Below are positions 31,684 through 35,102 of a stretch of 35,102 nucleotides of DNA, piece after piece. A model generated the notes under the pieces. That model worked only from the letters and a program-made list of their open reading frames with translations, was not told the DNA's origin and made no database searches. This DNA is from Dongia mobilis (GTDB lineage: Bacteria > Pseudomonadota > Alphaproteobacteria > Dongiales > Dongiaceae): contig NZ_CAMDRA010000017.1 of NCBI RefSeq assembly GCF_945906275.1, positions 1 through 35,102 on the forward strand. Reading direction: 5' to 3'. A program made the translations under genes and the position numbers. Position 1 is the first letter of the stretch. Every line of letters starts with the position of its first letter.

Positions 31684-32403
31684 ATGGCAATTGCAAAGCG
31701 GAAAGCCAGGTCAGCGCCCAAAAGCAAGGGCGCAGCAAAAGCCGCCGCCGTAAAGTCAAAGCGGCGGCGCCTGCCCTATTACAATCAGACCACTGATTTC
31801 AGCTGCGGGGCTGCCTCGCTGCTGATGGCGATGCGTGGCCTCGACAAGGAAATTCCCTTCGACCGAGTGCACGAACTGCAGGTTTGGCGGGAAGCCAACA
31901 CGGTCTATATGGGCGCCGGCCATGCCGGCTCATCGCCTTATGGAATCGCCCTTGCAGCCTGGCGCCGTGGTTTCCATGCCGAGATATGGGTCAGCCATAA
32001 GGGGGCCGTTCTGCTCGACTACCAGAAGAAGCCTGAATGGCGGAAGGCCGGCAAGCTGATGCAGGAGGCTGACGAGGCCAGCGTGCGTGAGTTGGGCATG
32101 CCGGTCGAGAAGCGCAGCTGGGACGTGGCCGATCTGGCACAAGCCCGCGCCGAGGGTGCCGTGCCGATCGTCCTGGTATCCACCAAGGCGTTTCACGGCG
32201 ACAACACCCCGCACTGGGTGGTCTTCGCCGACAGCGACGAGACAAGGGTCTATATCAACGACCCCTGGATCTCGCGCAACAAAGGCCAGACTGCGAAATT
32301 CCAGACCGGACGCGCCGCCACGCATGCGGCCTTCATGAACATGGCGAAGTATGGCCCCCGCAATGAGCGAGCCGTCGTTCTGATCCGCGGGCCGCAGATC
32401 TAG
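31684..32403 (+). CDS. C39-like cysteine peptidase-family protein (DUF3335 type)
   Basis: The 239-residue product has a basic Lys/Ala-rich N terminus (residues 1-29), then a papain-like C39-type fold. The oxyanion glutamine is Gln35 and the nucleophile Cys41 (NQTTDFSCGAASLLMAM), the histidine is His177 (PHWVVF), and the acidic residue is Asp193 (YINDPW). All catalytic positions are intact. C39 peptidases process bacteriocin leaders in ABC exporters; this stand-alone form resembles the DUF3335 group, for which I know no substrate. No signal peptide is visible, so it is probably cytoplasmic. It lies five bases after sucB and 57 bases before lpdA, so it is likely co-transcribed with the 2-oxoglutarate dehydrogenase genes. 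Confidence 0.8.
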   Translation: MAIAKRKARSAPKSKGAAKAAAVKSKRRRLPYYNQTTDFSCGAASLLMAMRGLDKEIPFDRVHELQVWREANTVYMGAGHAGSSPYGIALAAWRRGFHAEIWVSHKGAVLLDYQKKPEWRKAGKLMQEADEASVRELGMPVEKRSWDVADLAQARAEGAVPIVLVSTKAFHGDNTPHWVVFADSDETRVYINDPWISRNKGQTAKFQTGRAATHAAFMNMAKYGPRNERAVVLIRGPQI

Positions 32404-32460: not shown

Positions 32461-33864
32461 ATGGCCGAAGAATCCTTCGACGTCGTCATTATCGGTGGTG
32501 GTCCGGGCGGTTATGTCTGCGCCATCAAGGCGGCACAACTCGGCCTCAGCGTCGCCTGCATCGAAAAGCGCGGTGCGCTCGGCGGTACTTGCCTCAACGT
32601 CGGCTGCATTCCCTCGAAGGCGTTGCTTGCGTCATCGGAGAAATTCGAAGAAGCAGGACATCATCTGGCTGCCCATGGAATCAAGATGAGCGGCGTGGCG
32701 CTCGATCTCAAGGCCATGTTGGCACGCAAGGACAAGGTCGTGGGCGAACTCACCAAGGGTATCGAATTTCTGTTCAAGAAGAACAAGATCACCTACCTCA
32801 AAGGCACCGGCGCGCTGCTCGGCAACGGCAAGGTGGAGGTAACCGGCGACAGCAAGCAGGTGATTGCCGCCAAGAATATCGTCATCGCAACCGGCTCGGA
32901 CTCGACCCCGCTACCCGGCCTTACCATCGACGAAAAGAAGATCGTGACCTCGACCGGTGCGCTTACGCTTGAGAAAGTGCCGGAGCATCTTGTCGTCGTC
33001 GGCGGCGGCGTTATCGGCCTGGAACTCGGATCCGTCTGGCGGCGCCTTGGCGCCAAGGTGACGGTGGTCGAGTTTCTTGACCGTATCGTGCCCACCATGG
33101 ACACCGAGATCGGTGCTCAGTTCCAGAAACTGCTCGCCAAGCAGGGCATCGAATTCCGCCTCGGCCAGAAAGTGACCGGGGCGAAAGCCAAAGGCGCCAA
33201 GACCGAGCTGAACGTGGAGCCCGCCAAAGGCGGTGCGGCGGAGAGCATCGTCGCCGATATCGTGCTGGTTTCGATCGGCCGCCGTCCCTATGTCGAGGGC
33301 CTGGGACTGGACAAGGCCGGTGTGAAGCTGGATGAGAAGGGCCGCATTGCCACCAGCGGGCATTTTGCGACCAATGTGCCCGGCATCTATGCCATCGGTG
33401 ACGTCATCGTCGGCCCAATGCTGGCCCACAAGGCCGAGGAAGAAGGCGTCGCCCTGGCCGAGATTCTCGCCGGCCAGAAAGGGCATGTGAATTACGACAC
33501 CTGCCCCAACATCGTCTACACTCAGCCCGAACTCGCGTCGGTCGGGAAGACCGAAGAGGAATTGAAGGCCGCCGGCATCGCCTACAAGGTTGGCAAGTTC
33601 CCGTTCATGGTGAACGCACGGGCCAAGGCAGCCGGCGATACCGATGGCAGTGTCAAGCTGTTGGCCGATGCCAAGACCGACCGGCTGCTTGGGGCCCATA
33701 TCCTGGGGCCAGGCGCCGGGACGATGATCCATGAATGCGTCATGGCGATGGAGTTCCAGGCGTCAGCCGAAGATGTTGCCCGCGCATTCCATGGTCACCC
33801 GACGCACAACGAGGCGATCAAGGAAGCAGCACTCGCCATCAGCAGCAAGACAATTCACATGTAG
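32461..33864 (+). CDS. lpdA: Dihydrolipoyl dehydrogenase (E3)
   Basis: E3 is the FAD-dependent disulfide oxidoreductase that reoxidises the lipoyl groups of 2-oxoacid dehydrogenase complexes with NAD+. The 467-residue product has the FAD Rossmann motif GGGPGGY (12-18) and the redox cysteines Cys44 and Cys49 in [13 protein letters not shown]. The second Rossmann motif is [13 protein letters not shown], the FAD segment is YAIGDV, and the C-terminal catalytic pair is His446 and Glu451 in HPTHNE. ATG at 32461 has AAGGGAG upstream. It completes the suc cluster. Confidence 0.97.
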
Positions 33865-33893: not shown

Positions 33894-35069
33894 ATGCCGG
33901 AAGATGCAAGACCGACCATAGATGCTCTGCTTGCCGAAGCAGAGAATGCGTTTGAAGGCAGTCATGCTCAAGCCCTTGTGCTGACGCTCAAGGCACTCGC
34001 GCTGGCAATCGAAGATGGTGATGTCGAACTCATTGCCTGCTGTCAGCTGGAATGCGCCCGGCAGCAACGCGTCATGTGCCGGTATGGCGAGGCACTAGCC
34101 AATCTCGAAGACAGCTTCAATTACTTCGTTCAAACAGGCGACCGGCTGCGTGAAGGCATCGCACTTCGAACCTATGCCGCAATCTATGATGAAGTCGGAT
34201 TGTTCGACGAGGCGCTGGATTGCAATCAACGCGCCCTGGTTCTGTTTGAAGAGACCAATCAGACGCTTTTCCGGGCTATCTGCTTTGAAGATACCGGCAA
34301 CATCATGCGTCGACGCGGCTATCACGCGGAGGCCGTGGCAGCCTTTGAGAATGGCTTGGCGCTGCTGGATGAATTGCCGCCCGGGCTGGCCATCACCCGC
34401 TCGCGAGCGCATCTCGGCTGTGGCCTCCTGGAAGCTTGCCTGGAGGCTGGCGACGACGGCCGCGTTCTGGCCTCGATAGGTCGCGTGCTTGAGCAGGTCT
34501 GCATCATCGGCAACGGCAATCTCGAGGCCTATTGCCACAGTATGGCGGCCCTGGCGCAAGCCAGGCAGGGAGATGCCGCCGCCAGCCTCGCCACGGCTGC
34601 GACGGCGCGCCATGCCCTGGCCCGGGCGGAATCACCTTATGAACGCGTCGGCTGCCTGATGCATCTCGGTCGCGCCCGTGATGCGGTGGGCGATTTTGCC
34701 CAGGCACCGGCATTGCTTTCAGAGGCGCTCGAAACGGCTGTCCTTGCTGGTATCCAGGACCTTACCCTGAAATGCCATTCCGAACTGGCGCAGATCTGCG
34801 AACGAGCCGGCAATGTGACTTTGGCTCTTGAGCACCTCAAGACATTGCGGCGGCTCGAAGCCGATCTGCTCAATAGTCGGACCGATATCCGGCTCGATCG
34901 GCTACGGCTGGAAGTGGAGCGCGAAAGGTCGCGTCATAGCGAGGTTGATCTCGCGCGCCAGGAATTGGAACGACAGGTTGCCGCCCGCACCGTCGAGTTG
35001 CGTGCCGCCAAGGAGACGGCTGAACGCGTGTCAACGCCGGAGACAAAATGCATCGGTACGCCGGAGTAA
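33894..35069 (+). pseudogene. TPR plus coiled-coil signalling gene cut off by an insertion sequence
   Basis: The frame encodes 391 residues. Residues 1-330 carry TPR-like helical repeats (for example ALANLEDSFNYFVQTGDRLREG, DEALDCNQRALVLFEETNQ, HAEAVAAFENGLALLDEL). From about 335 a charged coiled coil follows, ending in QVAARTVELRAAKETAERV. That linker is typical of the stretch just before the histidine-kinase or GGDEF domain of TPR-type sensors. The downstream domain is absent: from base 35029 the sequence switches to terminal repeats of a mobile element, which contribute the last 13 residues and the TAA at 35067. The gene is therefore most likely a truncated sensor. ATG at 33894 has GAGAAGG upstream and follows lpdA by 29 bases. 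Confidence 0.7.
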
Positions 35070-35102
35070 AATTGCATCAGTGAGGCTGGCAGGAAGGCCC
35101 CC
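35029..35102. mobile_element. End of an IS21-family-like insertion sequence (continues past the window)
   Basis: The sequence starts with TGT at 35029, where the TPR gene's normal coding character ends. It carries two direct copies of a 21-base unit, ACGCCGGAGACAAAATGCAT and following base at 35034-35054 and ACGCCGGAGTAAAATTGCAT and following base at 35058-35078, spaced 24 bases apart. A TG terminus with tandem subterminal repeats is characteristic of IS21-family ends. The transposase genes would lie outside the window, so the family is inferred from the end only. Confidence 0.65.

Follow-up and report, generated by a model that had tools for sequence, protein, structure and literature searches.

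A multi-copy insertion sequence (IS) of the IS21 family has almost certainly transposed into a gene for a TPR histidine kinase that follows lpd in the genome of Dongia mobilis. The window, meaning the whole stretch of 35,102 nucleotides analysed here, is an entire contig (C17:1-35102) of a 3.72 Mb assembly in 271 contigs, and it stops 74 bp into this element. Reading the odd end of the window as an IS border means that any 391-residue TPR protein annotated at this position needs correcting, and places contig C17 next to contig C165. It also points to an expansion of IS21-type elements that has broken several genes in this genome, and leaves general understanding unchanged. The features of the window that carry the argument are as follows:

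32461-33864, + strand: lpd, dihydrolipoyl dehydrogenase, the upstream gene (TIGR01350, 3.8e-169)
33894-35028, + strand: 5' part of the TPR-HisKA-HATPase kinase gene, with TPR repeats and coiled-coil linker, 378 codons plus one base (TPR_12, 2.2e-12)
35023-35028, + strand: target-site duplication AACGCG (second copy at C165:149-154, right after the left end of the IS)
35029-35069, + strand: bases of the element coding for 13 residues, the first from a codon that straddles the border, and for the stop TAA (frame translation)
35029-35102, - strand: right (istB-side) end of the IS21-family IS, cut by the contig end (14 other copies; C11 copy)
35034-35057, + strand: terminal repeat R1 (repeat comparison)
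35058-35081, + strand: terminal repeat R2 (repeat comparison)
35089-35102, + strand: first arm of a long, terminator-like, GC-rich palindrome that separates R2 from the istB stop (longer copies)

An interrupted kinase gene and its intact relatives

The truncated frame (33894-35066, 391 codons, with the stop TAA at 35067-35069) is of mixed origin: 378 codons belong to the host, whereas the element supplies the final 13 residues (VSTPETKCIGTPE) and the stop, with one codon (G from the host, TG from the element) straddling the border at the start of this tail. An earlier reading of the DNA, made from the sequence alone, had proposed both this foreign tail and an end of coding at 35029. The border is exact, in that the same sequence begins behind 14 other, differing flanks in the same genome, and alignment with the proteins of relatives retains similarity up to residue 378 (35027). 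Further upstream in the window, sucB and lpd of the 2-oxoglutarate dehydrogenase cluster are separated by a DUF3335 peptidase-C39-like gene (31684-32403).

Homologues of the TPR half were sought in 41 genomes, that of D. mobilis included. Six held matches, namely its own, three of the six other genomes of the genus (G003, an uncultured Dongia sp. MAG, G001 and G006) and two less closely related ones (33% and 26%), with no homologue found in the same-genus genomes G002, G004 and G005. The TPR half is 84, 78 and 76% identical to the genes of G003, G001 and G006 (L048-L050, respectively), all of which are intact, stand after lpd and are followed by a converging gene, a GH5 by Pfam (PF00150, checked in L048 and in L060 on C165). 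Counted from the first start codon, these kinases are 627, 637 and 622 residues long and continue some 245-250 residues past the point of interruption, with TPR_12, HisKA and HATPase_c in one frame, whereas in D. mobilis Pfam places TPR and HisKA/HATPase_c in two separate halves. A gene ending naturally at 35069 is ruled out, as the three same-genus homologues run on into the kinase; an intact relative with the same stop, which would have spoken for such a gene, is not among them. Of the two outputs that the sequence-only reading had envisaged beyond the coiled-coil linker, the histidine kinase is the one identified by Pfam (HisKA and HATPase_c), and GGDEF is ruled out.

The missing half was located by searching the D. 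mobilis genome with the corresponding C-terminal part of L048. This search gave 55 kinase-like matches, the best of them by far at C165:154-861 (75%, E 3.3e-106), and the GH5 gene adjoins it (C165:897-1664, 84%) in the gene order of L048-L050. The TPR sensor gene beside lpd had been suspected of being interrupted, with its C-terminal domain on the far side of the element, and its two halves indeed lie in C17 and on C165. The opening 148 bases of C165 end in ...GCTTACA and pass directly into AACGCGCCAATCG, so that AACGCG stands on both sides of the element, a short duplication of the kind anticipated; target-site duplications in the IS21 family are 4-8 bp long. Joined with one AACGCG removed, the flanks yield a 630-codon frame, gapless at the junction, that is 80.5, 76.6 and 75.0% identical to L048, L049 and L050 (75-80% over 608-610 residues, 610 for L048) and has the same neighbours. 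Unlike these intact kinases, the D. mobilis gene is interrupted, and the last 20 residues of its joined frame (C165 about 800-910, L060) align with none of the three, perhaps through a late change of frame.

The two ends of the element

The 74-bp right end recurs in 14 further copies at or near contig ends, 100% identical over the shared length and with flanks that all differ, which gives 15 right ends in this genome, each with a distinct flank; a sixteenth match covers 16 bases only (E 0.24). Where copies extend past the 74 bases, they are 99-100% alike. R1 and R2 agree at 20 of 24 bases with a spacing of 24, a match never reached when the 74-bp end was shuffled 1000 times with its dinucleotides preserved, which rules out chance repeats. 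The repeats and their spacing had been recognised from the sequence alone, with a unit of 21 bases that is to be revised to about 24. Among the right-end copies, that on C11 extends furthest (226 bases): in reverse it crosses the GC-rich palindrome (fold of -43 kcal/mol, z -3.8) and enters istB over its final 40 codons, a C-terminus that matches NF006616 (2e-5) and PF01695 (5.1e-5), being short and below both curated cut-offs. Contig C17 ends within this palindrome, which is probably the reason why the assembly broke off at 35102. In the window istA-istB would run from right to left, against the kinase gene. An exact 47-base right-end pattern had no matches in a contig database from which this and near genomes are perhaps left out, and within the order right-end DNA is present in two of 17 genomes, D. 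mobilis itself and G001, the latter with a match of 38 bases. One more match to the IS-end pattern (TGTAGACGCCGGAG) at C236:1246-1259 is perhaps a related end, perhaps chance.

The left end (TGTAAGCGCCGGAG...) forms the first 148 bases of C165 and was found behind 25 distinct flanks in this genome with few single-base differences, alongside a diverged piece on C6 (56 bases, 89%). Its longest copy (C144, 286 bases) reads into the N-terminus of IstA (MKGVELYGLVRHAV...), the first 58 codons of which match NF033546 at 1.8e-5, again short and below the cut-off. The two ends are inverted and both start 5'-TG (TGTCAACGCCGGAG at the right, TGTAAGCGCCGGAG at the left), with 17 of their first 24 bases identical and CGCCGGAG boxes at positions 7 and 31 of the right end and 7 and 53 of the left. 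An IS21-like element with a TG terminus, an inverted opposite end and istA/istB genes is what the sequence-only reading had foreseen, and all of these were recovered, the two genes as fragments only. On C80 (11605-11746, L080) a left end lies inside the contig and gives way to other sequence after 142 bases, perhaps owing to an internal deletion or a misassembly.

Judged by its sequence, with TG inverted ends bearing repeated boxes, fragments of istA (for the DDE transposase) and istB (for the AAA+ helper) and a short duplication, the element would belong to the IS21 family, and the fit is good. As described in PMC10122671, the istA and istB genes of IS21 members are bounded by ends that carry the repeats L1/L2 and R1/R2; IstB captures the target, to which IstA joins the ends at staggered positions, and the target duplication of IS5376 is 5 bp. 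The element described here resembles IS21 and IS5376 in its istA and istB fragments, TG inverted ends, two repeats per end and short duplication, and differs from IS5376 in that the duplication at the kinase site is 6 bp. Its IstA N-terminus is 65.5% identical to that of the top-ranked plasmid relative, and left-end DNA from genomes of the same class reaches 96% identity (over 79 bases). The element is probably an unnamed IS21 member, probably the only novelty of the case; a literature search on Dongia insertion sequences returned, in the excerpts it offered, nothing apparently on the subject.

A related element assembled in full

A class-wide DNA search found the left end in 22 of 385 genomes, D. 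mobilis included, and eight stretches from six of these 22 were examined. The right end was sought in L121, L123, L124 and L126, and L124 alone held both ends. L124 (G250, contig C10) is an apparently complete element of about 2.5 kb, assembled through, in which a full istA (NF033546, 2.8e-87) and a full istB (NF038214, 1.4e-84) lie between similar ends, 75% identical to ours at the left and 81-91% at the right over the aligned pieces. Shared with our element are the IstB end RLTHHVHILEMNGDSYRL, the IstA start MKGVELYG and a GC-rich palindrome after istB, and the right end of L124 carries two GCCGGAG boxes. Unlike the element in C17, L124 has an assembled interior, and no target duplication was seen around it by eye.

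Profile searches with PF01695 and NF033546 found no contig with the full element in the D. mobilis genome, so the pairing of the left and right ends is inferred. PF01695 gave four matches, of which C11 alone is the element; the best, on C5 (27 bits, above the cut-off), lies inside a 671-codon frame, and those on C86 and C30 likewise fall in long frames. NF033546 gave three, none above the cut-off, and only C144 is the element.

Insertion, its consequence and alternative explanations

What is directly observed at the kinase site comprises the junction on either side, the duplicated AACGCG, the two halves of the host gene and the nature of the IS ends. The IS almost certainly entered at codon 379 of the kinase gene in the 2-oxoglutarate dehydrogenase cluster, with IstA and IstB of this element, whose interior is unassembled at the site, presumably carrying out the insertion. 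Transposition left the 6-bp duplication AACGCG and an element opposite in direction to the gene, so that the TPR half abuts the istB end. With transposition of the IS21 type, the host-element border, the duplicated bases and the number of copies are all explained, and the near identity of ends among copies, with the gene halves still open, points to a recent insertion. Loss of the kinase is the likely result, because the insertion closes the TPR half with 13 foreign residues and severs the HisKA/HATPase half from both sensor and promoter. As istA-istB reads against the gene, an istAB promoter would give the kinase half no transcript, and no promoter-like sites were found within the first 400 bases of C165. 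The lost kinase would be one of many in the genome, and inactivation by an IS is ordinary.

A population with both empty and filled sites is an unlikely alternative: the near-identical element ends across copies, suggesting recent activity, would suit such a polymorphism, but the assembly showed the filled form only. There is very little to be said for the insertion having uncoupled the kinase instead of killing it, with the kinase half still translated free of the TPR sensor and the TPR half made as a separate protein. The kinase half does keep an open frame, which extends into the left end of the IS, and an uncoupled product would start in-frame at the junction or at the Met just before the H-box. 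It is equally improbable that the window ends in a composite or altered element, such as a transposon with other cargo, rather than a full IS21 copy; the unassembled interior at the kinase site leaves room for one, but the longest right copy leads into istB, the longest left copy into istA, and L124 carries both genes between such ends. Finally, a chimeric join of the last 74 bases, with an intact kinase gene on the chromosome, is scarcely credible, for whilst the window ends at the junction, the element is repeated (the usual place for misjoins) and the C80 end copy is odd, two contigs break off at one and the same host position, each in a different end of the IS and with 6 bp of host DNA duplicated, and no intact copy of the kinase gene was found in the assembly.

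Other insertion sites in the genome

Transposition of a multi-copy IS21-family element, the reading preferred for the kinase gene, would also apply elsewhere in D. mobilis. Among the 375 combinations of right and left flanks, five share 5 or 6 border bases, against a chance expectation of about 0.4 for at least 5 shared bases under equal base frequencies. Besides the kinase, three further pairs have duplications of 6, 6 and 5 bp and continuous joined frames:

L035/L062: malic enzyme, apparently split by the same IS (Pfam matches in one half only)
L037/L079: HD-GYP-like protein with HAMP, GAF and HD_5, apparently split by the same IS (continuous joined frame)
L039/L070: HisKA/HATPase histidine kinase, apparently split by the same IS (Pfam matches in one half only)

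The fifth pair, a 6-bp match between flanks of C195 and C80, was rejected as chance (FAD_binding_4 against DUF3300). Counted by its left flanks, of which there are 25 (that on C80 being odd), the genome holds about 25 or more insertion sites, and at least three signalling genes, this kinase included, have apparently been struck. Expansion of the same IS, with its nearly identical ends, accounts for a number of contig breaks.

At the start of C178 (L041), the flank of a right end looks by eye like a tRNA gene's 3' portion (T-arm, CCA), and one IS copy may split such a gene there; ARAGORN found no tRNA genes on this flank, and joining it to each of the 25 left flanks gave no tRNA and no partner. 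As for genome size, the D. mobilis assembly is small at 3.7 Mb, with five of the six other genomes of the genus spanning 4.2-6.1 Mb; the sixth, G002, is also 3.7 Mb, in about 330 contigs.
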